From Phycisphaerales bacterium (lineage in GTDB: Bacteria > Planctomycetota > Phycisphaerae > Phycisphaerales > SM1A02): DNA of 64,000 nucleotides. The position numbers and the translations under genes are program-made. Below the pieces are notes generated by a model. It had not been told where the DNA came from and searched no databases. It was given only the letters and a program-made list of their open reading frames with translations. Position 1 is the first letter of the stretch. Every line of letters begins with the position of its first letter. The stretch spans positions 62,001-126,000 of the forward strand of contig SIAD01000003.1 in NCBI GenBank assembly GCA_009691915.1. Reading direction: 5' to 3'. Positions 29,655 through 59,520 of this stretch are shown here, piece after piece.

Positions 29655-29703
29655 CGGTGCCAAGTATAGGAGTCGCACGAATCGCGCCGCCTATCATCAC
29701 AGA

Positions 29704-31740: not shown

Positions 31741-31786
31741 CCTCGCGAGGCAAAGTGGCTGTGGCTACTCTTCACCGCTTCCACCC

Positions 31787-32272
31787 ATGCCGCCGACAAG
31801 TGCGTCAAACCTCACGATTGCGAACCTACTTTCACCACAGGCCATCCGAGTCCCATTGGCGGCCTCCGATCGCCGCGCAGCACTTGAGGAACTCGTCGAT
31901 GCCCTTGCATCTACGGGTGCAGTGACCGATCCCGAACTCTTCAAGCGGTCGGTGTGGGAACGCGAGCAGCAACGGTCGACAGGGATAGGCGAGGGGCTGG
32001 CCATTCCGCACGGAAAGTGCGCTGGAATCCTGAAGCCCGCGATCGCGGTGGGTCGGCCAGCGACCCCGATGGAGTTCGGGTCAATTGACCACAAGCCGGT
32101 TCGACTGATCGTCCTGCTTGCGTCGCCACCGGACCGAATGGCCGAGCACATTCAGGTCCTCCACCGGATCAGCAGGATTTTTTCGAGCGTTGCCACGAGA
32201 GAACGGGCGTGCATGGCTCCGGATGCGGTGACCATGTACGCCGAGCTCTGTCAGGCAGATAGCGCGGTGTGA
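31787..32272 (+). CDS. PTS EIIA (PtsN-like) domain protein
   Basis: 161 residues of the fructose/mannitol EIIA type. The phosphorylatable His75 lies in IGEGLAIPHGK, and LTIANLLSPQAIRV and KPVRLIVLLASP are family-typical. No EIIB/EIIC permease is visible, so like PtsN it probably has a regulatory rather than sugar-transport role. It lies 46 bp after the ferredoxin-TPR gene. A second, divergent EIIA-like protein is encoded at 45765-46223 next to antiporter genes. Confidence 0.88.
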   Translation: MPPTSASNLTIANLLSPQAIRVPLAASDRRAALEELVDALASTGAVTDPELFKRSVWEREQQRSTGIGEGLAIPHGKCAGILKPAIAVGRPATPMEFGSIDHKPVRLIVLLASPPDRMAEHIQVLHRISRIFSSVATRERACMAPDAVTMYAELCQADSAV

Positions 32273-36515: not shown

Positions 36516-38015
36516 ATGATGCCCACTCGCCCACATTCGAGCTCCGGACTCCTGCGCCTCCTGGCCATCGGAGTGGTCTCGTGCTGTGGCGCCTTGGACC
36601 CTCAGGCAGAGGCTGATGACGATCTCTACTCGCAGGACCATCTGATGGTCAGAGTCAAGCGCGGCGTCTCGCCCGCGAACCTTGATGGTGGTGGGCTGAC
36701 CTTCCGCCGAGATGGCGCGCCGCCCGAAGCGAGCCTAGGACAGATGATGAAGGCACTCGGCGCTAACCGCATTGAGCCAGCCGCTTCACACACCGTCGCG
36801 CACAAGGAGTTCGCGGCGCGGCTTAGCATGGACCGCTGGTACCGCGTTTCGCTCGCACCGGGGTTCGACGCTTTGCGTGCCGCCGATCTTTTGAAGGCGA
36901 CCTGGGATGGCTTCGAGATTTGCGAAGTAGACCCGATTGGGGGACTCGCGGACATCCCCAACGATCCGAGTTTCGCCATCCAATATCCCCTGAGGAACAC
37001 CGGGCAGTCAGGCGGCACTGTGGGCGCCGACATTCGCGCCGTCGCTGCATGGTCCATCTCCACGAGCAATCCAACCCTGACGATTGCCTTTCTCGACAGT
37101 GGCGTATTCCCACACATCGAACTCGACTCACGAATCCTCCCCGGACGGAACATCCCGCTCGACTCGTCGGACACCACCGATGTCTGCGGCGGTCACGGCA
37201 CGCATGTCGCCGGGATCGCCACGGCACGCGGCGCGAACGGTGTGGGGATCGCCGGAGTCTGCTGGGACGCGCTCATTCTCCCGGTTGTCGTTGTCAATCC
37301 GTGTACCGGTCTCGAGTCGTATGTTGCTGACGGACTGACCTGGGCGGTCGACCACGGGGCCGATCTCGTCAACATGAGTCTGCAGTACTCGCTCGGTTCG
37401 GTGTATCTGGAGACTGCGGTGCAGTACGCCGATCTTGCAGGAGTACCGATGATCGCCGCGACCGGCAACTCCAACGCGGCCGTATCGTTTCCAGCCCGCT
37501 GGCCGCAGACGATCGCCGTTGCGGCTTCCGATCGATTTGACCAGCGATGGTCGCTTTCCAACTTCGGACCGGAGGTCGAGGTCACGGCGCCAGGCGACTC
37601 GGTCTACTCACTGAACACCGGCAACCTCTACGCGACGCGCAGCGGCACGAGCATAGCCACAACGCATGTCACGGGGGTCGTCGCGCTAATGCGGTCGGTC
37701 TACCCCGGGATTCGCAGCGCATCGATTCGAACGGTGCTGATGCAGACTGCACGCGACATCTCCCCCCAAGGATTCGACAACTACACAGGTGCGGGGGTGG
37801 TGAACGCCGCCGCCGCAGTCGCCCTGGCGCAGAGCCTTGATCCTGGGCCGGCCGACTTCAACGGCGACGGCTTCGTCGATGGGGTCGATCTTGCGGCGTT
37901 CCTCTCCCAGTGGGGTGCGTGTGCTGCGTGCGACTGCACCGGCGATTTCAATGACGACTGTGTGGTTGATGGCGTCGACATGGCTCTAGTCCTATCCTCA
38001 TGGTCGGGAGCGTGA
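36516..38015 (+). CDS. secreted subtilisin-like serine protease with dockerin-like tag
   Basis: 499 residues. A signal peptide ([16 protein letters not shown]) and a propeptide of about 110 residues precede an S8 catalytic domain with Asp194 (FLDSG), His227 (GGHGTHVAG), oxyanion Asn318 (AATGNS) and Ser379 ([12 protein letters not shown]). The C-terminus has a two-repeat dockerin-like tag ([13 protein letters not shown]...[17 protein letters not shown]...SSWSG) with an unusual Cys insertion (CAACDC) between repeats. An ATG at 36519 is an alternative start. Its end overlaps candidate starts of the BFN gene. Confidence 0.9.
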
Positions 38016-38017
38016 CC

Positions 38018-38509
38018 ATGCCGATCCAAGTGGAACTGTCAAGAATCTTCATCCGCGAGATGGCGGACATGCAGGTGATCGAACTCACAGAGGTGGGGGG
38101 AAGCCGCTCCTTCCCGATTGTCATCGGCCTGACCGAAGCGTGCGCCATCGAGCGCAGACTCAAGGGCTGCGAGGTCACGCGCCCGCAGACTCACGATCTG
38201 CTCGCCAACATCATCGGACTCGTTGGGGCGACCGTGGTTCGAATTGAGATCCCGGAACTTAAGGGGGGAACCTTCTTCGCCAAGATCGTCCTCTCGCACG
38301 CGGGCAAGGAGATCGAAGTCGACGCGCGGCCTTCTGATGCGATCGCGCTCGGCGTGGCGCACCGCGCCCCCATCCTCGTTGCGGAGTCTGTGATTACTGA
38401 AGCCGGTCTCAGCGCTCAGGGGGCACCACCGCCGGCAATCGAGTCATCGGACGACGATGATGACGACGACGCCGCCGACGATGACGACGATGATGATGAC
38501 GAGTCCTGA
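38018..38509 (+). CDS. bifunctional nuclease (BFN/DUF151) domain protein with poly-Asp tail
   Basis: 163 residues. Residues 1-130 match the BFN/DUF151 domain: PIQVELSRIFIREM, FPIVIGLTEACAIERRLKG, RPQTHDLLANIIGLVGATVV and VDARPSDAIALGVAHRAPIL. The Thermotoga and plant relatives have been linked to nuclease activity; in bacteria the role is unclear. The last 25 residues are a tail of seven Asp, two Ala and eight Asp encoded by a GAY repeat. That region overlaps, antisense, the poly-Ser tail of the HAD-TruD gene. ATG 38018 chosen; GTG 38012 and ATG 38000 overlap the subtilase. Confidence 0.88.
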   Translation: MPIQVELSRIFIREMADMQVIELTEVGGSRSFPIVIGLTEACAIERRLKGCEVTRPQTHDLLANIIGLVGATVVRIEIPELKGGTFFAKIVLSHAGKEIEVDARPSDAIALGVAHRAPILVAESVITEAGLSAQGAPPPAIESSDDDDDDDAADDDDDDDDES

Positions 38510-40413
38510 TTGGACTCGTCGGTAGCGCGTCCTACTCGGAGTTCGCCGAAGAGTTCGCGAAGGACGGTTGTGGCAAACGAACCGGGGGGCAGATCGAACA
38601 CGGCCCGTACGAACCCTCCGAACTCGTCGACTCCCGCGTCGATTGATGCATTGGCGAGCGGGATCCTGAGAGGTCGTCTCGCGCCCGGCGGCGGAAATGG
38701 AGCGTCGGCAAAGGTTGCGAGGGACACCCCGAACCTCTCCGCGGCTCGCTGTTCGGCCTCGCGCACTCGGCTGGAACCTTCAAGAAGCTTCGCCCCCAGC
38801 AGCGGGCCGGTGGGCGACAGCTCCATTGCGGCCGCGCGCGCGTTCGCATCCTCGAGGTCGGATTCACCAACTACGAAGCATCCGCCACTCTCGTGCTTGA
38901 AGGCGACATCGCCACAGGCAAGCGACCCGAGCGAGCCGTTCGCGATGCGATCATCAAGCACTCCGTTGAATACCGCAGACTGCAGTGCGGTGATCCAGAA
39001 TCGAAGGAGCTCGCCGCCGAGCGACTTGACTGCCCGTGATGGGGTCCATCCACGAGAGAGTGCCAACGCGACTTTGCGCTCGGCGTTGTCCTGCGCCCCC
39101 CAGAGAGGAACGCTGCGTCCCCACTCGCCGCGGTCGCACGCCTCGCGCGCTTCCCGTTGATAGTCGGGGCAGGGGAGGTCTCCCGCTCCGGTGAGTTCAC
39201 AGACAAGTTCGTCCCATCGCTCCTCAAGGGCGAGTCTTCCGAGTCGGTGATTGTTTAGTCTCATACCGAATCGCTGCGAGCCGAAGCCGTTGGGGACTCC
39301 TGAGGACTCGAGAACGCGCAGTCGCCGCAACACCGTTGGCGCCGTCAGCGGGTCGACACCGCGCACACGGATCACAAAGCGATTTCCTGCGAGGTGTCCG
39401 CGACGGAGTTTGCTTTGGTGACGACGCGACCAGAGCACGATCAGGCGATCATGGACGAGTGCAACGGCCGGTTCGCCGTGGGGAATGTTGATCGAAAGAG
39501 TCTGGCGGGTCTCTGCGCGCCGATCCTTGATTCCGGCGTGGCCGATCGCCCCGAGATCGACCCCGTAGTGACGCGCGACGATCCGCAGGAGTTCGTCGTG
39601 CGCCATGTCAACCTTGTGGACACCGATGAAGAGATGCTCGCCGAGGCCGGATGGTTCGTAGAGAGGGAGCTCATCAACGAGAAAATCTCCGGGCCGTTCC
39701 TTGATGATCCCGCCGACACCTTTGACGCGTGTCACGGTGGCTGAGGCCAGCGGCGATGGCATGGTCGAAGTCGGCATCCGACTGAAGCACGCGAGAGCCC
39801 GAGAGATCTGCGCCGCGGGATCCCCCGCATGGTCGATGATGCTCGCGTGCCAGCCGCCAGCGCGCGCCGCCATCACATTCTCAGGGAGATCGTCGACGAA
39901 GAGAATCTCGTGAGGGTCGCATTCCATGGCTCGCTCGAATGCGGTGAAGATCGCCTCATCGGGCTTGGTCAACCCAAAGAGGTGGGAGGCGTACCGATGA
40001 TCGATCGCCGCGAAGGCAGGGGATGTCGCTTCCATCTGTCGCCAGTGGCGATCGTTAGTGTTCGAGAGGCAGGCGATGGCGATGCCCCGAGCCTTGGTGG
40101 TCTCGAGCAGTTCACGCACTCCCGGGTAGTCACCAAGGATCAGGGAATCGTGCGCGCGCGTGATCTCCTCCTTGGAGTAGAGGCCGCCGAGGGCCGAGTC
40201 GATCGCGGTCACAAACGCATCGAATGAGATTTCACCACGGTGAAGTTTGTCCACGGCCTCTTCGCGCGCGGCGCGTGTCTCGTCACATTCCGGACTCGAC
40301 GCAGGTCGCGGTTCAATTCCCGCGGCGCGGCACGCGTCCTCGAACGACCTGCAGATCCTGACGACAACACCGCCAAGGTCGAGGCACAGAACCTTGGGGA
40401 GTCTCGCGGTCAT
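38416..40413 (-). CDS. truD: HAD-family hydrolase fused to tRNA pseudouridine synthase TruD
   Basis: 665 residues. Residues 1-200 are a HAD phosphatase of subfamily IA type (LCLDLGGVVV with nucleophile Asp, CLSNTND, LTKPDEAIF, ILFVDDLPENV). From about 225 comes TruD, which makes pseudouridine 13 in tRNA. It shows NRFVIRVRG, catalytic Asp in HAGIKDRRAETRQ, GFGSQRFG and a complete insertion domain. The last 25 residues are poly-Ser, read antisense through the GAY repeat of the BFN gene. The ATG overlaps the tadA stop (ATGA), so two tRNA-modification enzymes are coupled. Confidence 0.92.
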   Translation of the reverse strand: MTARLPKVLCLDLGGVVVRICRSFEDACRAAGIEPRPASSPECDETRAAREEAVDKLHRGEISFDAFVTAIDSALGGLYSKEEITRAHDSLILGDYPGVRELLETTKARGIAIACLSNTNDRHWRQMEATSPAFAAIDHRYASHLFGLTKPDEAIFTAFERAMECDPHEILFVDDLPENVMAARAGGWHASIIDHAGDPAAQISRALACFSRMPTSTMPSPLASATVTRVKGVGGIIKERPGDFLVDELPLYEPSGLGEHLFIGVHKVDMAHDELLRIVARHYGVDLGAIGHAGIKDRRAETRQTLSINIPHGEPAVALVHDRLIVLWSRRHQSKLRRGHLAGNRFVIRVRGVDPLTAPTVLRRLRVLESSGVPNGFGSQRFGMRLNNHRLGRLALEERWDELVCELTGAGDLPCPDYQREAREACDRGEWGRSVPLWGAQDNAERKVALALSRGWTPSRAVKSLGGELLRFWITALQSAVFNGVLDDRIANGSLGSLACGDVAFKHESGGCFVVGESDLEDANARAAAMELSPTGPLLGAKLLEGSSRVREAEQRAAERFGVSLATFADAPFPPPGARRPLRIPLANASIDAGVDEFGGFVRAVFDLPPGSFATTVLRELFGELRVGRATDESNQDSSSSSSSSSAASSSSSSSDDSIAGGGAP
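38450..38500. repeat. GAY trinucleotide tract coding on both strands
   Basis: Seventeen codons of gac/gat interrupted by gcc gcc. Plus strand: D7-A2-D8 at the end of the BFN protein. Minus strand, in the TruD frame: a run of Ser (tcg/tca) with two Ala. The two convergent genes overlap by 94 bp (38416-38509), so the tract is coding in both directions. Confidence 0.9.
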
Positions 40414-40985
40414 CGACACACGCCTTTCTTCGCCGCGCGCCGGGCTCGGAAGAACTCGGTGAGCATCCGACCGCATGCGTGGGCCATCACGCCGCCGAAG
40501 ACCTCGACGCGATGATTGAGGCGCGCGTCGCGACAGAGGTCGAAGAGCGTGTCGACCGCGCCGGCCTTGGGGTCGCGCGCGCCATAGACGAGCCGGGCGA
40601 TTCGCGCGTTGACGAGCGCGCCGGCGCACATCGGGCAGGGCTCAAGCGTCACCGCGATCGAGCAGTCGATGAGCCTCCACCCACCGGCATTCGCTGCGGC
40701 CAGTCGGAGTGCGACAACCTCGGCGTGTCCGGTTGGATCCGCAGAGGCTTCACGGAGATTGCCTGCCTCGCCGATGATCGTTTCGCCTCGGTAGATGACC
40801 GCACCAACTGGCACCTCGCCCGCGGCCGCCGCCATCGCGGCGAGTTCGAGGGCGCGGCCCATCATGCGCCGGTCGATCGCGGTGACTCCATCGTGCGAGA
40901 GTCGCCGTCGGCGGGCGATGCGCCGTTGCCAAGGCGCCTTGAGGCGCGAAGGGCGCGGTCCGCCAACACATCGCTCCGACGGCAT
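40410..40985 (-). CDS. tadA: tRNA-specific adenosine deaminase TadA
   Basis: 191 residues. Converts the wobble adenosine of tRNA-Arg(ACG) to inosine. Zinc and proton-shuttle motifs HAEVVAL and EPCPMCAGAL are present, with VPVGAVIY and VYGARDPKAGAVDT. The start at 40985 overlaps the tatC stop (TGATG) and gives a basic about 40-residue leader. An internal ATG pair at 40865 would cut into the first conserved helix (RALELAAMA), so the longer form is preferred though the leader is unusual. Coupled to the HAD-TruD gene downstream. Confidence 0.93.
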   Translation of the reverse strand: MPSERCVGGPRPSRLKAPWQRRIARRRRLSHDGVTAIDRRMMGRALELAAMAAAAGEVPVGAVIYRGETIIGEAGNLREASADPTGHAEVVALRLAAANAGGWRLIDCSIAVTLEPCPMCAGALVNARIARLVYGARDPKAGAVDTLFDLCRDARLNHRVEVFGGVMAHACGRMLTEFFRARRAAKKGVCR

Positions 40986-42861: not shown

Positions 42862-44217
42862 CTACGGTACGCCCGGCACCGCCACAGTCACGCGCTTGAG
42901 CGCCATGCGCATCACGATCGGCCCAGCGAGTTCGTCGATGGCTATGCAGGCGATGACCACCGACGAGAGACTGCGCGCCCACGGTTCGCCGGGAAACTCG
43001 AGTGACATCTGCGCCACGAGCGCGAGCGACATCCCGGCCTGGGGAATGAACCCCGCCCACGCCCAGCGGATCGCTCCCGGAGAGAGACCACCCGCGCGCG
43101 CGCCGAGGGACGCACCGATCCACATGCTCACCGACCGGGTGGCCGAGAGTGCCAACACTCCTGGCCAGTGCGCCGCGAGACCACCGAGGTCTAGATGCGC
43201 TCCCGCGGCGGCGAAGAAGACGCAGCAGACCGCCAGAAACATGCGGCGGGAGTTGGCGAAGAACGACGCGGTCTCACGGGGGGCGATCGCCCGCATGGTG
43301 AATCCGAAGGTGACGGCCGCCACTAGAGGAACAAGGCCGAGCGCACCACAGAGGGCCACGAATCCCATCGCCACGACCAAGACCAACGCGCCGACTCGGC
43401 GCTCAACGCACCCGATCGCACGCGCGAGTGGCCACGCGAGCGCGGCGCCGATGGCGATGCTTCCCACGAGCCTCCAGGCGATCGCGTCCCAGGTGGGGGC
43501 GAAGGCGCGTGTCGTGCCGGTCGAGGCGACAAGGAACATGACAATAGAGAACGCCAGAACCAAGAGCAGGTCCTTGGACAGGGTGGTTGCAAGCAGCAGC
43601 CGTGCGAACTCTGTCGGGTGTCGCATCTCACGGAGGAGCGCGACCGACACCGCGGAGCTGCTGGTGGCGGCGATGGTCGCCAACAGCGCGGCCTCGTGAA
43701 GTTGGTAACGCAATAGGGAGGCCATCGCGGCGACCGAAATCGAAACAGCCACAATCTGGAATCCGCCAAGCGCGGCGATTGAGCGCAGCCGCGGCTTGAG
43801 GAACGAAGCGTCGATCTCGGAGCCCGCGACGAGCCCGATCATCACGAGCGCGAGCATTTCGGCTGTAGCAAGCCCCGCGAGTTGTTCGGCGTTGACTAGC
43901 GCGAAGGTCGGTCGTCCCAGCACGGACCACAGTTCAGGCCCGATGGCGATCCCGAAGATGAGTTGCCCAGTAAGCGCCGGCAAGCCAATTCGCCGCGCGA
44001 TCCGCCCCGATAGCCACGCACCAAGGATCGTCAGCCCGAGGACGGTCATAGTCTCGCCGGCGGCGGGCAGTGCCGACTGGGGCAGGCCGACGACTCCCTC
44101 ACGGACGAATCGCGCTGCCACGACGAGCGCGGCGAGACCTACGAGTGCCGCCATGAGTGTGAGGATCGATCCGGCACCGGTTCGCTGGCGCGTTCGCGTG
44201 GCCAGGGTTGTGTTCAC
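42862..44217 (-). CDS. cation/proton antiporter-like membrane protein A
   Basis: 451 residues with about 12-13 hydrophobic helices, of the CPA2 fold. Recognisable parts: RIGLPALTGQLIFGIAIGPE (family inlet helix) and LVMIGLVAGSEIDASFLKPR. No RCK/TrkA nucleotide-binding domain follows. It starts with GTG in a GTGA overlap with a second antiporter-like gene, suggesting two different subunits made in fixed ratio. Probably exchanges Na+ or K+ for H+; the ion is not readable. Confidence 0.85.
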   Translation of the reverse strand: MNTTLATRTRQRTGAGSILTLMAALVGLAALVVAARFVREGVVGLPQSALPAAGETMTVLGLTILGAWLSGRIARRIGLPALTGQLIFGIAIGPELWSVLGRPTFALVNAEQLAGLATAEMLALVMIGLVAGSEIDASFLKPRLRSIAALGGFQIVAVSISVAAMASLLRYQLHEAALLATIAATSSSAVSVALLREMRHPTEFARLLLATTLSKDLLLVLAFSIVMFLVASTGTTRAFAPTWDAIAWRLVGSIAIGAALAWPLARAIGCVERRVGALVLVVAMGFVALCGALGLVPLVAAVTFGFTMRAIAPRETASFFANSRRMFLAVCCVFFAAAGAHLDLGGLAAHWPGVLALSATRSVSMWIGASLGARAGGLSPGAIRWAWAGFIPQAGMSLALVAQMSLEFPGEPWARSLSSVVIACIAIDELAGPIVMRMALKRVTVAVPGVP

Positions 44218-45440
44218 GCGCGATCATCCTTGAGATCATCCTGTGGAGGTCGAAGGGCGGTCAGCGCGATGGAACCAAGGGCGACGAGCGTGCCGAGCGT
44301 GAGCAGCTCGGACGCAAGCCCCGACCGATCCTGCACAGAGAATGCCAGCAGCACCACGATCACCAGCGGCGCCTGACGGACCACTGCGCGCGATGCAGGC
44401 AGCGAGTGGAGCTGGGCTGGGGCATCGGCACCGAGCGCGAGTGCCATCACCAGCGGCTTGAGAATGTCTCGCGCCAACGCGATCACCACAGCCGCGATTA
44501 CAAGCCAGAGACACACCACAGGCTCCGCAGGGACACGAAGCAGGAGCCCCGCGAAGAGGAACAACCCTGCGGCTACGACTGGTTCGCCACGGGAGATGAA
44601 TGCAGCGAGAGTGCTGGCGCGAGTACGGCTCGCAGCAATCGTCGCGCCGATGAGCAGTCCGCTGAAGAGTCCTGATCCTCCACACGACACTGCCACCCCC
44701 GCGAGGAGTGCGAGTGCGCCTACGACGACGAGCGTCGTGCGCGCATCATCCTCACGGGAGTCTCGAACGATCGCCACCGCGACCAGCGCGACGGCAGCGA
44801 CGGCCGCGGCTTCAAGAGCGAGCGCCCACAGTCCTGCACTAGGGGCCATCACGGCCACGCCACTGGAGTCGAGATGTGCGATCTGTAGCGAGAGCGATGA
44901 GACAAGTACTGATCCGATCGCCAGCGCGCCCGCACCGACCTGGACGAAGCGAGCGAGTTTCAGCGATGCCTGATTACTGCGGATGCCAAGCGATCGAGAC
45001 TCCGGGTTCCATCCGATGGCGATGGAGGCTGCAGTTCCCGCAAGGACTAGCTGGCCGGCAGCGCTCGGCTCCTGCTGCCACGCACCCGAGAGCGCGGTGG
45101 CTGCGACCGCACCGCCGAGAAGACACAGGAAAAAGTCAGCAGCGATCCATCGCCACAGCGGTCGCGGAATCGCGCGGATCAAGGCCCACTGGCACTGCAG
45201 GCCGACGACGGCTCCGCACCATGCGAGGAGGAGCAGGAGGATCGGCTGCGCGGTTGCGAGCCGATCCTCTGACACGATCCCCGACGCCATCGGTCCGAGC
45301 ACGACTCCAAGGAAGAGGAATCCCCATCCGCCACCGAGGATCCGCAGAAAGCGTTGCTGCCGAGCGCCCCGATCCATCCACCGACCCCCGGCAAGGAGAA
45401 CAATGAGACCGAGCGCCAGCCAGACGAACAGGTCGATCAC
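44214..45440 (-). CDS. cation/proton antiporter-like membrane protein B
   Basis: 408 residues, about 12 helices. WGFLFLGVVLGPMASGIVSE and LLAWCGAVVGLQCQWALIRA resemble the inlet and core helices of CPA-type antiporters, but the sequence is clearly distinct from its neighbour. GTG start overlaps the stop of the PII-like gene and its own stop overlaps antiporter A (both GTGA). Likely the partner subunit of a two-subunit transporter. Confidence 0.78.
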   Translation of the reverse strand: MIDLFVWLALGLIVLLAGGRWMDRGARQQRFLRILGGGWGFLFLGVVLGPMASGIVSEDRLATAQPILLLLLAWCGAVVGLQCQWALIRAIPRPLWRWIAADFFLCLLGGAVAATALSGAWQQEPSAAGQLVLAGTAASIAIGWNPESRSLGIRSNQASLKLARFVQVGAGALAIGSVLVSSLSLQIAHLDSSGVAVMAPSAGLWALALEAAAVAAVALVAVAIVRDSREDDARTTLVVVGALALLAGVAVSCGGSGLFSGLLIGATIAASRTRASTLAAFISRGEPVVAAGLFLFAGLLLRVPAEPVVCLWLVIAAVVIALARDILKPLVMALALGADAPAQLHSLPASRAVVRQAPLVIVVLLAFSVQDRSGLASELLTLGTLVALGSIALTALRPPQDDLKDDRA

Positions 45441-45772
45441 GCCTCAGTTCCGAGCACCCGGATCGACGGGAGAATGATGGCAATCGGGCGATCATCCCTG
45501 GGGAGCTCCTCTAGCCTGCCAAAGGCGGTCGATGCCGATTGATCCGACGCGACGGCAATGACAACTCTGCTTCCGATCGCCTTCGGCAACATCGCCGCAA
45601 GTCCGGCGAAAATCGGCATATCAAGCTGCATGATCGACTCAATACTCTGAGATTCGGCAACTGCAGCACAGGTGACCCCAGAGTCAATGAGAATGTTCAT
45701 GACCGCTTCAAACGATCCGCCGTGCTGGACGAGGACGATCATGAGACTCTGGTTCTGGGCTTTATCAACCAT
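45437..45772 (-). CDS. PII-like small regulatory protein
   Basis: 111 residues from ATG 45772. The layout (MIVLVQHGGSFEAVMNILID, SGVTCAAVAESQSIESIM, then DMPIFAGLAAMLP at 51-63 and SRVVIAVASDQ) looks like the ferredoxin-like fold of PII/CutA-type trimeric sensors. The MPIFAGL motif is what I recall from small proteins beside cation antiporters. Identity to true GlnB is not evident and no uridylylation loop is seen. It sits between an EIIA-like gene (8-bp overlap) and antiporter B (GTGA). Suggested role: ligand-controlled regulator of the antiporter. Confidence 0.6.
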   Translation of the reverse strand: MVDKAQNQSLMIVLVQHGGSFEAVMNILIDSGVTCAAVAESQSIESIMQLDMPIFAGLAAMLPKAIGSRVVIAVASDQSASTAFGRLEELPRDDRPIAIILPSIRVLGTEA

Positions 45773-46223
45773 CCCTGTTGCACTCCTGCTTGAAAAACTC
45801 GCATAGTTCTCCGGCGTCCGTCTCCGAAAGCATCGCCTCCCGAGCATCCCTCCGGGAGCAGATTCTGGCCACCCGCGCAAGGGTTCGCACATGGCGCCAA
45901 GGCTCTTTGGTGTCAGCAAAGAGGCCGACGGCAATGCGGATGTGGTGTGGCCCGAAAAGGACGGGGGCGGCCGTTGTCACGATCACAAGACCGGGGGAGT
46001 CGATCTCTGGCAGGATCGCGTGCGGAAAGGCAACCCCCTCGGGTGTGCTGGTTGGGCCGAGTTCCTCTCGCTCATGAAGGCGAGCGTGGAGGACTTCGAC
46101 TGAGATTCCCGAGAGAAATGTTGTATTGGCCAGTCGGGCAATCTCCATGAGCACCCCATCGCGGGTAGCGGCGGGGCAACAAGGGTGTCCCGCATAGACG
46201 CGGATGCAATGTTCGCCGCTCAC
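45765..46223 (-). CDS. PTS EIIA-like domain protein of antiporter operon
   Basis: 152 residues, GTG start. EIIA type-2 pattern: REELGPTSTPEGVAFPHAIL with the phospho-acceptor-equivalent His68, then LFADTKEPWRHVRTLARVAR and a typical C-terminal helix. First gene of the eight-gene operon, divergent from the respiratory operon. No EIIB/EIIC is present, so it should serve as a phosphorylation- or metabolite-responsive controller rather than sugar import. The region before VAFPHA differs from the PtsN-like protein at 31787. Confidence 0.78.
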   Translation of the reverse strand: MSGEHCIRVYAGHPCCPAATRDGVLMEIARLANTTFLSGISVEVLHARLHEREELGPTSTPEGVAFPHAILPEIDSPGLVIVTTAAPVLFGPHHIRIAVGLFADTKEPWRHVRTLARVARICSRRDAREAMLSETDAGELCEFFKQECNRDG

Positions 46224-46260: not shown

Positions 46261-46290
46261 TTGACTGGGCTGCTGTTGGAGGCGTACTCT
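46261..46290 (+). promoter_or_regulatory. candidate promoter of respiratory operon
   Basis: TTGACT at 46261-46266, 18 bases, then TACTCT at 46285-46290, in the 137-bp region between the divergent EIIA-like gene and actA. The -35 is good but the -10 matches only three of six positions. Start of transcription would be near 46297. Confidence 0.35.
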
Positions 46291-46360
46291 GCCCGTTCGT
46301 TTCGAGATTGTGAAAAAAGGCACAAAGTCCGATCGGTTCACTATTTCGCCCATTCCACAC

Positions 46361-47023
46361 ATGCCAGCCAAGAGTCGATTCCTCTTCCCACGGTGGTCGA
46401 ATGCGCTGCTGCCGTTCCTCATCGTGGCAGGCGCGACGATGCCTATATATGCCGCGTTCATCGTCGCGTACGGACTGAGCCCCAAGACGCTCGACCTGGG
46501 ATACCAACCGGTGCAGCCGGTGCCGTACAGCCACGCGCTGCATGTTGGCAAGCTCGGCCTCGACTGCCGCTACTGCCACAACACCGTCGAACGAGCATCG
46601 TTCGCCGCGGTCCCGCCTACGCAGACCTGCATGAACTGCCACACGCAGATCCAGCGCGATAGTCCGAAACTCGAGAAGGTGCGCAGTTCGTACGAGAGCG
46701 GAAAGTCGATCGAGTGGGTAAAGGTTCACAAGCTTCCCGACTACGCCTACTTCGACCACAGTGCCCATGTGAATCGCGGCGTCGGCTGCGTCGAGTGCCA
46801 TGGCCGCGTCGATCAGATGGAAGTCGTCTATCGGTTCTCACCGTTGGCGATGGGCTGGTGCCTCGAGTGCCATCGCGACCCCGACTCACATCTTCGCCCG
46901 GTCTCTCAGATCACCAACCTGGCATGGGATCAGAAGGTCGAGATGACGCCTGAGGAGCGCGCCGCGCTCAAGTCGCTCTATCACATAAGCCCAAGCGAGA
47001 ATTGCTCCACATGTCATCGATAA
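46361..47023 (+). CDS. actA: alternative complex III pentaheme cytochrome ActA
   Basis: 220 residues. One N-terminal membrane helix (LLPFLIVAGATMPIYAAFIV) anchors a periplasmic domain with five CxxCH heme-binding sites: CRYCH, CMNCH, CVECH, CLECH, CSTCH. This matches ActA of alternative complex III, which passes electrons from menaquinol oxidation to the terminal oxidase. Start at ATG 46361 resembles the family N-terminus; a GTG at 46310 would add 17 residues. Last codons overlap actB. Confidence 0.93.
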   Translation: MPAKSRFLFPRWSNALLPFLIVAGATMPIYAAFIVAYGLSPKTLDLGYQPVQPVPYSHALHVGKLGLDCRYCHNTVERASFAAVPPTQTCMNCHTQIQRDSPKLEKVRSSYESGKSIEWVKVHKLPDYAYFDHSAHVNRGVGCVECHGRVDQMEVVYRFSPLAMGWCLECHRDPDSHLRPVSQITNLAWDQKVEMTPEERAALKSLYHISPSENCSTCHR

Positions 47024-50000
47024 AGGACCGGTACTGGCGCAGCGTCGAGGACCTCACTCAGTCCGAGGACTTCCGTGAGTGGATGCACCGCGAGTTTCAG
47101 GATGGCGCGACTGAACTTAGCACCGAGGATCGGCGGCAGTTCCTCAAAGTGATGGGAGCATCGTTTGCGCTAGCAGGTCTCTCTATCGCGGGCTGCCGTC
47201 GCTGGCCAGAGACCCATGTAGTTCCGGCCGCCAATCAGCCGGCGAATCGCACACCGGGGCAGCCCGTCTACTACGCCTCGGCGTGGGAATTCGCAGGGTT
47301 CGCACAACCGATGCTGGTCAAGAGCTTCGATGGCCGTCCGATCAAGCTCGAGCCCAATCCATCCCATCCGTTCGGCGGCGCCGGACTCTCGTCGGTGGCG
47401 CAGGCGCAGGTCCTTGCGATGTATGACCCGGATCGCAGCCGCACGGTGCTCTCAAGAGGCACGCGCTCCACCTATCCGCAGTTCAGCTCGTTCTTCGCGA
47501 CCAAGGCTGCGGCGCTGCGCGCACAGCGGGGCACGGGACTGGCGATTCTCGCGGACTACCGCAGCGGTCCGACCTATGCGGCGACGATGGCTGCCGTGCA
47601 CACCGCGTTTCCCGGCGCGATGGTGGTGGCGTGGGAGCCGCTCTCGCGCGACAACGCGAGTGATGGCACCGCGCTGGCATTTTCCTCGCCGCGCCGCGTG
47701 CTCAATCGATTTGACAGGGCGAAGGTGATCATCTCGCTCGGTGATGACTTCCTGTACTCGACGCCACTGGCCTCCCAATGGGCGTTCCAGTGGTCGAAGG
47801 GACGCGCCATCGAGGCAGCCGATCCGAAGGTCCAGGAGATCACGCGCCTCTATGTAGTCGAGAGCGGCTTGACCCTGACCGGCATGAATGCCGATGAACG
47901 GCTCGCCGTGCGGCCCAGCGGAGTCGTGCTGGTTGCGGCACTTGTGGCTCATGCCATCGGAGCCGGTCAGGGCGACGCCGCGCTGACGGGCGCGATCGAT
48001 GCGATCGCCAGTTCGCCGGCAGCGCAATCCCAACTCGCAGGCAAGGGGAAGGCGATCATCGATGCGATCGTGGCCGATCTCAAGACGCACAGGAGTGCGG
48101 CCCTCCTGACTGCGGGCGACACCGCCTCGCCGTTGACCCACGCGCTCGTCGCGGCCTGCAATCGCACGCTCGGTGCGGACGGAACCACGCTGGCGTATCT
48201 CGACGAGCCCATCGCACCGTCGGCGGCCAATTTCGGCGCACTCGTCGCGGCGATGGGGGCTGGTTCGATCGACACGCTGATCATCCTCGGCGGGAATCCG
48301 GTCTACGACGCTCCTGCGGACCTCGACTTCGGGACTGCACTCGCCAAGGTGCCGCATGTCGTACATCTCGACATGTATGCCAATGAGACGGCGCTTCATC
48401 CCGCGTGCTCCTGGCACATTCCCGAGGCGAGTTTTCTCGAGGCGTGGGGAGACGCGCGGAGCTTTGACGGCACCGTCACAATTCAGCAGCCACTCATCCT
48501 TCCTATGGTCGCGGGTGATCAGGGTGGGAAGTGCCAGATCGAACTGCTCTCGGAACTCGTGGGCGCGAGTGCGCTCGATTCGCAGACGATCGTGCGCAAG
48601 ACGCACGAAGCATCCAGCGGTCTAACTGGGCAGGCGTTTGATGCCGCATGGCGGAGCTGGCTCGACGAGGGTTTCGTTCCGTCGAGCGCGTACGCGGTGG
48701 CGGAATCACCGTTCAACGCTGCCGCACTCGCCAGCGCACTTCGTGCGTACGCGGCGCCCACATCGCATGCACCCGAACTCTCCTTCCTGCGCGACATGAA
48801 AGTTTGGGATGGCCGGTTCTCAAACCTCGGGTGGCTTCAGGAGCTTCCCGATCCGGTCACCAAGATCAATTGGGACAACGCCGCGCTCATGGATCAGACG
48901 CTCGCCCAGACGCTGGGAGTCAGACGCGGCGACATGGTGAAGCTGTCACTCACCACAGGAAACTCGACCCGTTCCATCGAGGCGGTGGCGTGGCCGCTGC
49001 CGGGTCACTCCGCAGGAACCGTGTCACTCGCGCTGGGCTACGGCCGAAGCGGCGCGGGAGTTGGCGCGGTCGCGGAAGCGGCGGGATTCAACGCCTTCAA
49101 ACTCCGCACGACGAACACGCTCGACTGGGCCCCAACACTCTCCATCGAGAGGACGGGGGAGAAGTACGCGGTCGCGCACACCCAGGACCACGGCGCCGCC
49201 GACGCGCTTGTCACCAGCGTTCCGGAGCAGGGGATTCAGGATCGCCTTCCCACGCTCATTCGTGAGGCACCGCTTGCCGTGTATCGGAACCACCCCGACT
49301 TCGCGCGCCATGTCACGCATGTGACCAGCCGACTCTCCCTCTGGGAGGAATCTAACCTCGACGGCGCGCAGTTCCGCTGGGCGATGTCGGTCGATCTGGC
49401 CAAGTGCACCGGGTGCAGCGCGTGCGTTACCGCGTGCCAGGCGGAGAACAACATTCCCATCGTCGGCAAGGATCAGGTCCTGCGCGGACGCGAGATGCAC
49501 TGGATCCGAATCGACCGCTACTTCAAGGGATCGAGCCCCGCCTCACCCGACAGCTTCGCGATTCAGCCGGTGACATGCATGCATTGTGAGAACGCACCGT
49601 GCGAGCAGGTCTGCCCGGTCGCGGCGACGGTCCATGACGCGGACGGCCTCAATGTGATGGTCTACAACCGCTGCGTCGGAACCCGTTACTGCAGCAACAA
49701 CTGCCCGTACAAGGTCCGGCGCTTCAACTTCTTCGACTACCAGCGCCGGGAACCCCAGCGGGAAGAGGGTCTCGCAAAGGTGAAGCCCGAGTACTACGTC
49801 GACGAAGGACCGGACATCTGGCTGCGCATGCAGTTCAATCCCGATGTCACGGTGCGAATGCGTGGCGTGATGGAGAAGTGCACCTTCTGTACGCAGCGGA
49901 TCCAGTCGGCAAAAATCAAGAGCAAGAACGCGTGGGCGATGGCCGGTGGCGAGCGACCGGGAGCCGCAAACTTCTCGATACCCGACGGAGAGATTCAGAC

Positions 50001-50232
50001 CGCCTGCCAGCAGGCGTGCCCGACGAACGCCATTGTCTTTGGCGACCTCAATGTCAAGGACTCAAGGGTCGCCAAGCTCCATCGCAGCGGGCGGTCCTAC
50101 CAGCTGCTTGAGGAACTGAACACCAAGACCCGTGTCCAGTATCTCGCCCGGGTAACGAATCCGGCGACCACTCAACCACCTGGGCATGCCGAGCCATCGA
50201 CCGCCCCCGACCACCCTCACGCAGGACTCTGA
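47011..50232 (+). CDS. actB: alternative complex III Fe-S/molybdopterin-like subunit ActB
   Basis: 1073 residues. An N-terminal cytoplasmic segment is followed by a Tat-like motif [24 protein letters not shown] molybdopterin-oxidoreductase-like domain without visible Mo ligand comes next (residues about 60-760). A ferredoxin domain with four Cys clusters ([44 protein letters not shown]...CQQACP) follows. This two-part architecture is diagnostic for ActB. ATG 47011 overlaps actA. Export via Tat would rely on TatC encoded at 40985. Confidence 0.95.
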
Positions 50233-50252
50233 GCATCCCGAGCATTCAGATC

Positions 50253-51731
50253 ATGAAGATCATGTCGAATTCCTCCAGCAACTCAATGAGGGGCTTCATA
50301 GACACGGACAACACGGAGCAGCCTGTCGGCACGCGCGTTCCGCTCGTCCTTCACATGAAGTCGTTCGGCGAGGTGACCCATCAGGTCTGCCGCGTCGCCG
50401 AGACGAAGCCACCGCTGGCGTGGTATGTGGCCTTCGCGGTCTCGCTGTCGATGCTTGCATTTCTGGGGTTCTGCGTCACCTACCTGATCTTCACCGGGGT
50501 CGGAGTCTGGGGACTCAACAACCCAGTCATGTGGGCCTACGACATCACGAACTTCGTGTTCTGGGTCGGCATCGGGCACGCGGGCACGCTCATCAGCGCG
50601 ATCCTCTTCCTCTTCCGCCAGAAGTGGCGCACAGGCATCAATCGGTTCGCCGAGGCCATGACCATCTTTGCAGTCATCTGCGCCGGACTGTTTCCTGGGA
50701 TCCACATCGGCCGCGTATGGCTGGCCTACTGGCTCTTTCCGATCCCGAACTCGATGGACATGTGGCCCCAGTTCCGCAGCCCGCTTCTCTGGGATGTGTT
50801 CGCGGTCGGAACATACTTCACGGTTTCACTGGTCTTCTGGTACATAGGAATGATCCCCGACCTCGCCACGCTGCGCGACCGGGCCACGGGGAAGTTCCAA
50901 CAGTTCGCGTACGGGCTCGCGTCCATCGGATGGCGAGGTTCGATGCGCCATTGGCATCGCTACGAGGTCGCGTATCTCCTGCTCGCGGCTCTGGCGACAC
51001 CGCTGGTGCTCTCGGTGCACAGCGTGGTGTCGTTCGACTTCGCCGTCAGCCAGCTCCCTGGATGGCATTCCACGATCTTCCCACCCTACTTCGTGGCGGG
51101 GGCGATCTTCTCGGGCTTTGCGATGGTGGTTTCACTAGCCGTACCGGCGCGCCAGCTCTTTGGCCTCAAGGATCTCATCACGCTGCGTCATCTCGACAAC
51201 ATGAACAAGATCATCCTGGTGACAGGATGCATGGTCGGGTACGCCTACTCGATGGAATTCTTCATCGCCTGGTACTCAGGCGCGCTGTACGAGAAGTTCG
51301 CCTTCATCAACCGCGCCTTCGGGCAGTACTGGTGGGCCTACTGGATCATGGTCAGCTGCAATGTCATTACGCCGCAGCTCTTCTGGTTCAAGGCGATCCG
51401 CATCAGTGTGCCGCTGATGTTCGTGCTGAGCATCTTCGTGAATGTGGGGATGTGGTTCGAGCGGTTCGTGATCATCGTCACGAGTCTCGCCAACGACTTC
51501 CTTCCCTCATCGTGGGATCAGTTCGTCCCGACATGGGTTGATATCGGAACGATGGTGGGAGCGTTCGGGCTTTTCGGTACCTGCTTCCTGCTCTTCTGCA
51601 GGTACCTCCCGATGATCGCGATCGCCGAGGTGAAGGCGGTAATGCCGCAGGCGAACCCGCATCCGCACCATGATCACGCGCATGACCCGCATGACCCGCA
51701 GGGCGCAGGTGCCGCCGGAGTGAAACGATGA
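50253..51731 (+). CDS. actC: alternative complex III NrfD-like quinol subunit ActC
   Basis: 492 residues with about ten membrane helices, the NrfD/PsrC fold that binds quinol. Family landmarks: [53 protein letters not shown] and [19 protein letters not shown]. The C-terminus is His/Asp-rich ([13 protein letters not shown]), possibly metal-binding. Stop overlaps actD (ATGA at 51728-51731). It oxidises menaquinol and feeds the ActB/A chain. Confidence 0.95.
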
Positions 51732-52348
51732 CAACCCTCACGCCGACTTCGTCCGCGCACGAGACGCCTGCGAAGGCAGCACCAGCCCCTCTCTACGGCG
51801 TGATGGCCGAGTTCGTGACGCCAGAGGCGATCACCAAGGCAGCCATCGCAGTTCACGCGGCCGGATATCGCTTCTGGGACTGCCATGTTCCGTTTCCGGT
51901 GCACGGGCTGGACAAGGCGATGGGAGTGAAACGCACCATCCTTCCGTTCCTCGTATTCGGCGCGGGGCTCACGGGCATGATCCTGGCATTCTGCCTGCAG
52001 GCGTTCACGAACGCGGCCTCGTTTTCCCTCTGGGCACTCGTGTGGGTGTCCGGCTACCCGTTCCTGATCTCGGGCAAACCGATGATGTCTATTCCTGCCT
52101 GGATACCGGTCATATTTGAGTTCACCGTGCTCCTGTCTGCCCTCGCCGCCGCGGGGCTCATGCTTGGTCTCAACCATCTTCCCAGACTCTCGCATCCGCT
52201 GTTGTCGAACAATCGATTCCGCCGTGCGACCGATGACCGCTTCTTTGTGGTGATCGAGGCGCGCGATCCGAAGTTCCTACGGTCCAAGACAGAAGCGTTC
52301 CTGGCGTCGCTTGGTGCCACGCATGTCGAAGCCGTGGAGGACCGCTGA
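51728..52348 (+). CDS. actD: alternative complex III subunit ActD
   Basis: 206 residues with two central helices. The DUF3341 pattern is clear: [60 protein letters not shown] and the C-terminal soluble half with [11 protein letters not shown]. ActD bridges the complex subunits; no cofactor. Coupled to actC (ATGA) and actE (TGATG). Confidence 0.94.
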
Positions 52349-53016
52349 TGCCACGAATCATCGTCTACACACTGCTCATTCTGACCCTCCTGGCGATCCT
52401 CCCACCGGTCGTCATCGCGCAGGTCCGGTCGAAGCCGAATCCGAACCTTCCGATCAACCTGATCCAGGACATGGACCTTCAGGCGAAGTTCAAGGCGCAG
52501 TCCATGAACGACTTGTTCTCCGACGGCCGTTCGCAGCGCGTTCAGGTCGCCGGAACCATCGCCAGGGGCGAGGCCGCTCTCGACACGCACTTCAATCAGG
52601 GAGTTGTCGACGGTCAGTGGGCCTCGTCGTTTCCCGAACGGCTCCCGGCGAACATGGAACTCATGAAGCGTGGAGAGGGGCGATTCAACATCTACTGCTC
52701 ACCCTGCCATGGGTACTCCGGCGGTGGCAATGGCGCGGTCAACCAGCGTGCGCTCGAACTCGTGGCCAATGCTGACGGTCCGGTGAATGGGACGGTATGG
52801 GTTGCGGCGAAGAGTCTTCACGACGCGACCATCACGATTCAGCCTGTCGGGCAGCTGTTCAACACAGTGACCTACGGGATTCGAAACATGGCTGGCTACC
52901 AGTCGCAGATTCCCGTCGAGGATCGCTGGGCGATCGTCGCGTATGTGAAGGCACTTCAGCGAAGCCAGGATGCCGCCCTCAACGATGTTCCTACAGACAA
53001 GCGGGGGGGACTCTGA
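52348..53016 (+). CDS. actE: alternative complex III monoheme cytochrome ActE
   Basis: 222 residues. An N-terminal hydrophobic segment (VYTLLILTLLAILPPVVIAQ) anchors or exports it. A cytochrome c domain carries CSPCHGYSGGGNG and a likely Met ligand in IRNMAGYQSQI. The leader region MDLQAKFKAQ is also seen in other ActE proteins. ATG 52348 shares a base with the actD stop. The heme passes electrons toward the oxidase. Confidence 0.92.
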   Translation: MPRIIVYTLLILTLLAILPPVVIAQVRSKPNPNLPINLIQDMDLQAKFKAQSMNDLFSDGRSQRVQVAGTIARGEAALDTHFNQGVVDGQWASSFPERLPANMELMKRGEGRFNIYCSPCHGYSGGGNGAVNQRALELVANADGPVNGTVWVAAKSLHDATITIQPVGQLFNTVTYGIRNMAGYQSQIPVEDRWAIVAYVKALQRSQDAALNDVPTDKRGGL

Positions 53017-53019
53017 GCC

Positions 53020-54351
53020 ATGAGCGCATCGGTCACTACATCCGCTGACCTCTCCGACCGCAGCATCATGGGAGACGAACGCTTGGTGCGTGTCTCGCGC
53101 ATGGCGTACACGGTTGCGGTCGCCGCGCTCGCCTTGGCAGCGCTGGTTGCATGGCGACAGGGCGATGCCCACGGCTTCGCGATGATCTGGCTTCAGAACG
53201 GTCTGTTCGTACTGTCGCTGGCGCTTGGTGCACTCTTCTTCACCATGATCCAGCACATCACCAACGCCGGGTGGGGGATCTCAGTCCGCCGCGTCGCGGA
53301 AGCGCAGGCGGCAAATCTCACTTGGATCTGGGTGCTCTTCCTCGTGCCGATGGGCTGGTTGTGCCTGACGAACCACGAATGGGCTGGACACGGCCACGGT
53401 CTCGCGCTCGTCTGGCCGTGGGCGGACATGGCGCACATGAGTGCCCACGCCCACGCCGAGGCAAAAATCGTCCAGGCCAAGGCCGCCTACCTGAATGTCC
53501 CGTTCTTTCTGATCCGAGCAGTCTGCTACTTCGCGGTGTGGGCATTCCTCTCGGCATGGTTCCTGCGCACCTCGCGTCGACAGGACGAGACCGGGGACCC
53601 CGCGCTTTCCGCGAAGATGCGCAAGGGTGCGGCGGTGTCGCTCATCCTCTTCGCCTTGACCGCGACCTTCGCGTCGTTCGACTGGATCATGTCGCTCTCG
53701 CCGGCGTGGTTCAGCACGATGTTCGGCATCTACTTCTTCTGTGGCACATGCGCGGGTGGGTTCTCGGCAATAGCCGTCGCATGCCTTCGCCTGCAGTCGA
53801 AGGGATACCTCCGAGGTGTCATTACCGCAGAGCACTATCAGGATCTGGGAAAGCTCATCTGGGCATTCGGTGTCGTGTTCTGGGCGTACATCGGGTTCAG
53901 TCAATACATGCTGATCTGGTACGGCAACCTTCCCGAGGAAACCGTCTGGTTCCTTGCGCGCCAGATCGGCAGCTGGGGGTGGGTCAGCTTCGCACTGCTC
54001 TTCGGCCACTTCATCATTCCGTTCCTGTTCCTTCTCTCCCGCTGGACGAAGCGTTGGCGCGGCACGCTGATGATTGGTGCGCTGTGGATGCTCGCCTTCG
54101 CGTGGATTGATCTCTACTGGCTGGTGATGCCGGTGGTGCCAGCGGATGCCGCAACCTTCGATACCTACGACGCGCTCAACCTCGCGTACTCGACGACGAC
54201 GACTGGGCTGTCGAATCCCCTCAACTACCTCGTGCTCGCCGGATTCCTGGGAATCAGCATCGGGACATCAACGCGGCGCCTCTCGCAGGGTTCCGTCCTT
54301 TGCCGCCGCGACCCGAGGCTTGCCGAGAGTCTCCGCTTCGAAAACATCTGA
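53020..54351 (+). CDS. actF: alternative complex III membrane subunit ActF
   Basis: 443 residues, about ten helices. ActF lacks cofactors and resembles a truncated ActC-like half. Landmarks: FFTMIQHITNAGWGISVRRV, SFDWIMSLSPAWFSTMFGIY, LIWAFGVVFWAYIGFSQYML and LDLYWLVMP-like segment near the end. A His-rich loop (HAHAEAK) lies after helix 3. Completes the ActABCDEF set in canonical order, three bases after actE. Confidence 0.93.
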   Translation: MSASVTTSADLSDRSIMGDERLVRVSRMAYTVAVAALALAALVAWRQGDAHGFAMIWLQNGLFVLSLALGALFFTMIQHITNAGWGISVRRVAEAQAANLTWIWVLFLVPMGWLCLTNHEWAGHGHGLALVWPWADMAHMSAHAHAEAKIVQAKAAYLNVPFFLIRAVCYFAVWAFLSAWFLRTSRRQDETGDPALSAKMRKGAAVSLILFALTATFASFDWIMSLSPAWFSTMFGIYFFCGTCAGGFSAIAVACLRLQSKGYLRGVITAEHYQDLGKLIWAFGVVFWAYIGFSQYMLIWYGNLPEETVWFLARQIGSWGWVSFALLFGHFIIPFLFLLSRWTKRWRGTLMIGALWMLAFAWIDLYWLVMPVVPADAATFDTYDALNLAYSTTTTGLSNPLNYLVLAGFLGISIGTSTRRLSQGSVLCRRDPRLAESLRFENI

Positions 54352-54376
54352 GTCCATCCACACGCGACCTACAGAC

Positions 54377-54778
54377 ATGTCACACCACCCAACCACAGCT
54401 CCAGCAGTTCAGATCGACGACCCCGAGGCGGGCCAGACCTGGGTGGCCGCTCTCTCCGGCGTGATCATTCTGGCGGCCCTCGTGGTGGCGACCTGCGTCT
54501 TCTACTTCCGCGTTGAGCAGGAGGAGGTTGATCTCAAGGTGATCGATGTTCAAGACCAGTGGCTCGCCGGACTCAAGCAGGAGCAGGTTCGGGAGATCTC
54601 CGTCTACCAGAAGTACACCGTCACGGCCCCAGATGGCGCTTCGCTGCCGCGGATTCGGATCCCTGTGACGCTAGCGATGGAACTGGTTGTTCGGGATTTG
54701 AAGGAACACAAGGCTCCAGTACCAGCCCCACACCATGACGCTGCTGCTCATCCCGATCCAGGAGCGTCGACCAAGTGA
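54377..54778 (+). CDS. small single-helix membrane protein between actF and sco
   Basis: 133 residues, ATG 54377. A short acidic N-terminus (AVQIDDPEAGQTW) and one membrane helix (VAALSGVIILAALVVATCVF) precede an alpha/beta segment of about 70 residues outside the membrane (VEQEEVDLKVIDVQDQWLAG, SVYQKYTVTAPDGASLPRIR). A His/Pro tail ends it. Not recognised as a known Act or Cox subunit. Stop overlaps the SCO start (GTGA). Likely an accessory subunit or assembly factor of the ACIII-caa3 pair. Confidence 0.7.
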   Translation: MSHHPTTAPAVQIDDPEAGQTWVAALSGVIILAALVVATCVFYFRVEQEEVDLKVIDVQDQWLAGLKQEQVREISVYQKYTVTAPDGASLPRIRIPVTLAMELVVRDLKEHKAPVPAPHHDAAAHPDPGASTK

Positions 54779-55665
54779 TCCGTCGCGCGTCCATTCTTGT
54801 CTTCGGCGCCGCGTTCCTGACGCTGGGCGTGTGTCTGACCTCAGCGCACGCACAGTCGTCGCAGGCTCCCTACGCGCCGGGCGAGGCCCCAATCGTGGCG
54901 GACGGAGTCGCACCCGAGATGGAGGGCGTCGACATCACGGAACACCTCGGCGGCAGCGTGCCGCTCGACCTCGCGCTGATGAACGACGACGGGACACAGA
55001 CGACCATGGGCGCACTGCTAGCCGCGGGTCGTCCCGTGATGCTCCATCTGGGCTACTACAAGTGCCCGATGCTTTGCACACTTGTGCTCAACGAAGGAAT
55101 TCGCTCGCTCGCCAAGGTCGACCTTTCGATGGGTAAGGACTTCGACCTCGTCTCGATCTCAATCAGCCCCAAAGAAGGGCACGAGCTCGCCCACGCCAAG
55201 AAGCAGGGGTATCTCGCGGAGTACTCGCGCCCGGGAGCGGAGAAGGGAATGCGGTTTCTCACCGCAGTTCCAACCGCCGTGGGCGAGACCGCGCCCGGAG
55301 CAATCGCCGACGCCGTCGGATTCGGCTACAAGTTGCTGCCTAGCGGCGAGTACTCGCATGCAGCGATCTTCGTCATGCTCGCTCCGGATGGGCGAATCGT
55401 TCGCTACCTCTACGGAGTCCGGTTCGATCCCGCGACAATGCGTATGGCGATCGTCGAAGCGGGCGAGGGGAAGATCGGAACGCCGCTGGATCGTTTCATT
55501 CTCTGGTGCCATCAGTGGGATCCCTTAAGCAAGGGGTACTCGCTTCTGGCCTTCCGAGTCATGCAGGTCGGCGGAGCGATCACCGTCTGCGTGATGGCCG
55601 TCGGCCTCGTGTGGATGTTCGCCCGCTCCGCGCGACGGGCGCGCCTTGCCCCCCACGCCGCCTAG
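54775..55665 (+). CDS. SCO1/SenC copper chaperone for cytochrome oxidase
   Basis: 296 residues. Signal peptide (ASILVFGAAFLTLGVCL), then the thioredoxin-like SCO domain with copper ligands C97 and C101 (GYYKCPMLCTLVLNEG) and the distal His in GEYSHAAIFVML. An extra C-terminal membrane helix (VGGAITVCVMAVGLVWMFA) tethers it, unlike short SCO proteins. It loads CuA of CoxB, encoded next. GTG start overlaps the preceding gene. Confidence 0.93.
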   Translation: MIRRASILVFGAAFLTLGVCLTSAHAQSSQAPYAPGEAPIVADGVAPEMEGVDITEHLGGSVPLDLALMNDDGTQTTMGALLAAGRPVMLHLGYYKCPMLCTLVLNEGIRSLAKVDLSMGKDFDLVSISISPKEGHELAHAKKQGYLAEYSRPGAEKGMRFLTAVPTAVGETAPGAIADAVGFGYKLLPSGEYSHAAIFVMLAPDGRIVRYLYGVRFDPATMRMAIVEAGEGKIGTPLDRFILWCHQWDPLSKGYSLLAFRVMQVGGAITVCVMAVGLVWMFARSARRARLAPHAA

Positions 55666-55674
55666 GACACTCCC

Positions 55675-56787: not shown

Positions 56788-56814
56788 CGACTTGATGCAC
56801 GCGAAGAGACTCCA

Positions 56815-59504: not shown

Positions 59505-59520
59505 GCCAATCGAGCCTCCC

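Follow-up and report, generated by a model that had tools for sequence, protein, structure and literature searches.

In Escherichia coli, unphosphorylated PtsN (EIIANtr) binds and inhibits the K+/H+ antiporter YcgO (PMC11808508), and PtsN has several potassium-transport targets in this organism (PMC13104625); in another system the T-loop of the PII-fold protein SbtB inserts into the transporter SbtA (PMC8352866). Control of a cation/proton antiporter (CPA) by an EIIA protein of the phosphotransferase system (PTS) and control of a transporter by a PII protein are each already known, then, but separately. Here we describe a module in which both kinds of regulator gene adjoin a pair of antiporter-fold genes, in the order EIIA–PII–CPAa–CPAb, in a 64,000-nucleotide stretch (the window; G000:C33:62001-126000) of a planctomycete genome of 2.27 Mb. 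As we read it, with somewhat more confidence than doubt, the gene products are an ion/proton antiporter, in which a catalytic CPAb is joined by a modified CPAa, and an EIIA–PII pair that controls it at the protein level. A search of the open-licence PMC literature gave no description of the EIIA, PII and CPA combination, of an EIIA–PII fusion, or of an acid-less paired CPA subunit.

Like PtsN–YcgO, the module combines an EIIA of the PTS_EIIA_2 family with a CPA antiporter and has no sugar permease, and we propose that here, too, the phosphorylation state serves as the signal. On the other hand, YcgO is one CPA1 protein whose C-terminal RCK/CorC region binds PtsN, whereas the module has two CPA proteins without such a region, an EIIA encoded in the operon, and an added PII-like protein. 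With SbtA–SbtB and AmtB–GlnK it shares a small protein of the PII fold, whose gene adjoins that of a transporter and which carries a conserved motif at the T-loop position; the transporter differs in fold and oligomer, however, and those systems lack an EIIA.

The antiporter-fold pair

All four genes lie on the minus strand. The EIIA gene (46223..45765; 152 aa, GTG start) overlaps the PII-like gene (45772..45437; 111 aa) by 8 bp, an AGGAG stretch upstream of the latter lying within the EIIA gene, and overlaps of 4 bp each join the PII-like gene to CPAa (45440..44214; 408 aa) and CPAa to CPAb (44217..42862; 451 aa).

CPAb, the proposed catalytic antiporter, scored 76 bits against PF00999 (Na_H_Exchanger; cut-off 26.2), and its profile matched the NapA and NHE6 structures at E 2e-8 to 2e-9. 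By alignment, its site in transmembrane segment 5 (TM5) is SKDLL (43564..43578, minus strand), in which Asp216, preceded by Lys215, corresponds to the second Asp of the NapA DD pair. The TM5 Asp is present in 44/44 A5 sequences and in 71/71 second-position genes, and Arg361 is invariant (44/44); the first Asp of the NapA-type pair is mostly Lys (28/44). CPAb resembles the Kef/NapA-type CPA2 antiporters in having the TM5 Asp, a full-length NapA match and a match to the CPA2 model TIGR00932, the last below the NCBIfam cut-off (59.4 against 238.3 bits). Unlike them, the module has no RCK domain, no KefF/G and an extra, acid-less CPA-fold protein, and the TM5 pair in CPAb is mostly KD as against their DD, ND or QD.

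The window's CPAa had no match of its own in Pfam (including PF00999) or in a sequence search of the PDB, and the PF00999 matches in L067 and L112 were below threshold. It is nevertheless homologous to CPAb over the full length (hhalign probability 99.8%, E 8.6e-28), and its AlphaFold2 (AF2) model (pLDDT 91.5) predicts a NapA/NHE fold, superposing on NapA 5bz2 with Z 27.1 and a root-mean-square deviation (rmsd) of 4.9 over 364 residues; in this model the C-terminus coincides with the end of the membrane domain. At the TM5 site, however, CPAa reads GAGALAIGS (44910..44936, minus strand), with no acidic residue in the alignments, and at the TM4 position it carries WNPESRSL (44988..45011, minus strand), a motif of the type W..E.[RK]SL. 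The two proteins are therefore not equivalent: CPAb always has the TM5 Asp, and CPAa has the full antiporter fold but, in the window and most other planctomycetes, no such acid.

An acid near the TM5 site of the first gene is absent from 35/38 planctomycetes (including the window), 7/10 Aminicenantes and 3/12 others, and is kept in 6/6 Gemmatimonadota and 7/7 Myxococcota. Given its absence in both planctomycetes and Aminicenantes, the acid appears to have been lost more than once. CPAa does not have the look of a decaying gene: the copies read all keep an open frame, and neither Glu286 nor Arg324 varies among 44 sequences; Arg324 is at the TM10 position, and Lys328 is almost invariant.

Neither CPAa nor CPAb matched TrkA_N or TrkA_C up to E 10, and a CorC/RCK cytoplasmic region of the YcgO type was found in neither. 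An earlier note on this DNA, made from the letters alone, had correctly given the coordinates of four consecutive genes with overlaps of 4-8 bp and two membrane proteins without RCK domains. Its description of these as two channels is unlikely, because both have an antiporter fold, and equivalence of the two subunits is not supported, given the TM5 acid that CPAa lacks.

The EIIA and PII-like proteins

The window's EIIA passed PF00359 (PTS_EIIA_2) at 57.2 bits (Pfam cut-off 27) and failed the PtsN/EIIANtr equivalog TIGR01419 at 33.5 bits (NCBIfam cut-off 138.7); by these profile scores it is an EIIA family member and not PtsN proper. The predicted phospho-acceptor, His68, lies in GVAFPHA (46017-46037, minus strand), which has the GxxxPH pattern of PTS_EIIA_2, and the active-site motif is retained across nearly all EIIAs of the module, as judged with an EIIA profile built without the fused EIIA–PII open reading frames (ORFs). 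One EIIA in an otherwise complete module (L086, 5490-5984) carries IPN in place of the active IPH, and there phosphorylation may be lost.

The same genome encodes HPr (C18:324395) and EI (C5:18577). No PTS_EIIC was found in the whole genome, and neither EIIB nor EIIC is among the four operon genes. Two further EIIA proteins were seen in passing: the HPr gene adjoins a third EIIA gene (G000 C18:323927-324634), and the window encodes a second PTS_EIIA_2 protein, passed over in the earlier note (31619-32272, plus strand; 101.6 bits), whose frame overlaps the end of a 4Fe-4S dicluster ORF (29644-31740).

The 111-aa protein itself had no match to Pfam P-II (PF00543) up to E 10. Among its relatives the P-II match was over the cut-off of 25 in L008, L112 (33.3 bits), L130 (37.7 bits) and L128 and under it in L005 and L006. 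When a profile built from 38 relatives was searched against solved structures, it reached GlnB (2eg1) at E 1.7e-6. The folds nearest to the AF2 model of the window protein (pLDDT 86.8) include SbtB (5o3q, Foldseek E 7.7e-5), GlnK1 and other PII-like proteins (3dfe, Z 10.4, rmsd 2.1 over 78 residues), with a sequence identity of about 12-15% to SbtB and GlnK1. Judged from profile and model together, the protein is a divergent PII-family member with a ferredoxin-like fold. A CutA-type metal-tolerance protein was considered and rejected: CutA folds were listed for the model, yet the sequence profile matches GlnB/GlnK and not CutA.

The canonical features of GlnB and GlnK are missing. Instead of a T-loop with Tyr51 the protein has a motif of the MPIFAGL type (residues 52-58; 45599..45619, minus strand), which aligns with IYRG of the GlnB T-loop and in which Phe55 and Gly57 are at least 90% conserved across 38 sequences. 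The B-loop of the window protein is PRDDRP and not GDGK; a glycine motif is absent there from the window-type (Phycisphaerae) proteins, whereas SbtB binds adenyl nucleotides, and G-x-G is kept in most relatives from other phyla. Nor does the window protein conserve the residues that GlnB uses for 2-oxoglutarate and uridylylation, and together these absences speak against a classical nitrogen sensor. The window genome, 96% complete, yielded no canonical P-II protein.

Distribution, transporter partners and surroundings

In its own lineage the module is patchy, with CPAa in 15 of 61 family genomes and PII in 27 of 392 phylum genomes searched; 14 of the 15 CPAa genomes have EIIA and PII alongside. 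A scan of species genomes gave 76 loci, and at least eight lineages of phylum rank have the genes in the order EIIA–PII–CPAa–CPAb. Named as in the sequence records, the lineages of the 76 loci are Planctomycetota, Gemmatimonadota, Aminicenantes, other Acidobacteriota, Nitrospinota, Nitrospirae, Latescibacterota, CSSED10-310, KSB1, Calditrichota, Deltaproteobacteria and Myxococcota. Chance gene order is ruled out by this recurrence across phyla.

Altogether 99 distinct PII loci were counted and, given that they were located through PII, the counts describe PII loci and not all antiporters. In 64 of them PII is adjoined by EIIA and one or more CPA genes (EIIA with two CPA genes in 51, EIIA with one in 8, and a fused EIIA–PII ORF with CPA genes in 5). 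Ten more have two CPA genes and no adjacent EIIA, seven of these in Myxococcota, and the rest are contig ends, loci with CLC partners, or PII without either partner. In the Myxococcota loci L153-L159, PII is followed by two CPA genes, the first with an acid (LDD) at TM5, and EIIA is not adjacent. A variant order with two PII genes, EIIA-CPA-PII-CPA-PII, was seen in L060 (3098-7039) and L144.

EIIA and PII are a single ORF in planctomycete family f15 (L064, L065, L066, L078 and L080), with the EIIA His retained in the alignment, and a second fusion was found in Acidobacteriota (L208). In 19 of 20 further Acidobacteriota loci EIIA is beside or fused to PII, and in most of the 20 a CPA pair comes before or after them; four (L197, L198, L200 and L204) have EIIA–PII without a neighbouring transporter.

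The pair also has other partners. A CLC gene with CBS domains (PF00654, E about 1e-100) lies directly downstream of EIIA–PII in Calditrichota (L130, 5221-8068) and KSB1 (L102, 4663-7513), and in two loci of the Acidobacteriota phylum (L128, 2341-6342; L194, 1-4046) CLC is upstream, with two genes between. In a looser cluster (L081, 3225-7194) a CitMHS-type transporter, a PII protein, a DUF2225 protein and an EIIA occur together. The presence of EIIA–PII beside CLC argues that the pair is a transporter regulator, and its occurrence near unrelated ion transporters gives it the look of a portable control pair; given these partners and the lack of EIIC in the genome, we read it as a regulator of ion transporters and not as part of a sugar system. 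We put forward, tentatively and as something that may well prove wrong, the broader idea that EIIA and PII, sometimes fused, are a portable two-input unit that gates ion transporters of unrelated fold and that in many phyla is combined with a heteromeric CPA antiporter, one subunit of which has lost its ion-binding acid and taken on a regulatory or scaffold role.

A further PII arrangement bears comparison. In L082 (4067-5129), L083 (2582-4722) and L210 (3363-4563) a PII-family protein likewise adjoins a membrane protein, here DUF1538 (PF07556), which we take to be an antiporter candidate. Unlike CPAa and CPAb, DUF1538 belongs to an unrelated membrane family; its PII is nearer to canonical P-II, and EIIA is not adjacent.

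The earlier note had also listed an EIIA with an active His, a PII-like 111-aa protein and nothing for sugar transport nearby, and each of these agrees with the results above. Of the two results that it named as refuting, a structure model unlike PII for the 111-aa protein and a lack of conserved synteny beyond close relatives, neither was obtained. Its central idea, the coupling of an ion transporter to both a phosphorelay protein and a sensor of the PII type, is supported by the PII tests, the synteny and the EI and HPr genes.

Within the window, the next gene after CPAb is TatD, at 42855, and a respiratory cluster on the opposite strand, divergent from the module, begins at about 46265 (46265-59952, plus strand). 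It includes a multihaem cytochrome, iron-sulphur/molybdopterin-type ORFs and COX1 (56788-58533, PF00115), resembling an alternative complex III plus oxidase. A promoter scan matched no sigma-70 site. Farther away are a subtilase-like protein (36516-38015, plus strand) with a C-terminal dockerin-like [12 protein letters not shown] repeat pair, and two convergent ORFs (38000-38509, plus; 38416-40629, minus) with a tail-to-tail overlap, the shared DNA of which encodes the poly-Asp end of the plus-strand product and the poly-Ser end of the minus-strand product.

Proposed mechanism and alternatives

In the mechanism that we propose, CPAa and CPAb would form a heteromer in which CPAb carries out the exchange, of K+ or Na+ for protons. 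EIIA would be phosphorylated on His68 by EI and HPr, so that its state would follow the supply of phosphoenolpyruvate (PEP), and by analogy with PtsN on YcgO the unphosphorylated form would inhibit, or gate, the antiporter. The PII-like protein, probably a trimer, would bind a small ligand and dock on the transporter through its MPIFAGL loop, the proposed contact site, much as SbtB uses its T-loop on SbtA. Transport would then need a permissive signal from both inputs, energy supply and ligand state.

Several observations weigh against this mechanism. PtsN docks on the C-terminal CorC/RCK region of YcgO, and since that region is absent from CPAa and CPAb the docking site for EIIA must differ. 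A PII trimer matches SbtA and AmtB, which are themselves trimers, but CPA antiporters are dimeric. Nucleotide binding by the window's PII is doubtful because its B-loop lacks the glycine motif. The one CPAa genome without EIIA and PII alongside has a CPAa-CPAb pair with no EIIA-PII upstream (L073, 4761-7831), and in Myxococcota PII and two CPA genes occur with no EIIA next to them. HPr is found in 31 of 32 module carriers, but also in 58 of 61 family members overall, with or without the module; its presence is therefore not specific support, and we dropped it. Finally, CPAa may not be inactive, given the Glu at TM4.

That Glu is central to the strongest of the alternatives, that CPAa and CPAb are separate homodimeric antiporters, only co-expressed and co-regulated, CPAa using a relocated acid from its TM4 motif. 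W..E.[RK]SL is present in 29/29 acid-less planctomycete CPAa outside the fused clade and in 0/3 of those with a TM5 acid, so that a relocated acid is a real rival to a non-catalytic subunit. The conservation of Arg324 and Lys328, the single CPA gene of some Gemmatimonadota loci and the acid retained by the Myxococcota first subunits point the same way. The TM5 acid and the planctomycete-type TM4 motif are both missing, however, from the fused-clade planctomycetes and from the seven acid-less Aminicenantes CPAa; acid loss is confined to the first gene, and the strict CPAa-CPAb order, with its overlap, suggests joint assembly. We consider separate antiporters unlikely, though deserving of serious attention.

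It is also conceivable, if distinctly improbable, that EIIA and PII mainly control something else, such as transcription or metabolism, and that they do not bind the antiporter directly, its genes being passengers in the same operon or targets farther downstream. The four Acidobacteriota loci without a neighbouring transporter would fit this, as would the roughly 20 PII loci with neither partner (three generic P-II loci among them) and the several targets of E. coli PtsN (PMC13104625), but at most loci the pair stands with an ion transporter, drawn from several unrelated families (the CPA pair, CLC, CitMHS-type), which points to transporter control.

We give very little credence to a passive role for the PII-like protein, in assembly or stability, with EIIA phosphorylation the sole real input. 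The B-loop and GlnB residues missing from the Phycisphaerae-type protein would suit such a role; most relatives in other phyla, however, keep the G-x-G B-loop, and Myxococcota retain PII with the CPA pair where EIIA is not adjacent. A PTS permease of the sugar type, with the CPA proteins standing in for EIIC and the transported substrate phosphorylated by EIIA, has next to no likelihood: EIIA does head the operon, and the genome has EI and HPr, but the operon lacks EIIB and EIIC, the genome lacks PTS_EIIC, and the CPA fold is that of an H+/cation antiporter.

Our preferred reading, a two-subunit antiporter under the control of EIIA and PII, would, if true, tie two classical metabolic sensors, the PII family and the PEP phosphorelay, directly to a single ion/proton antiporter, and would do so in phyla that have almost no transporter physiology on record. 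The fused EIIA–PII proteins offer a ready reagent for asking whether both inputs act together, and the module would provide a natural case, at least in planctomycetes and Aminicenantes, of an antiporter fold whose catalytic acid has been lost from one member of a subunit pair.

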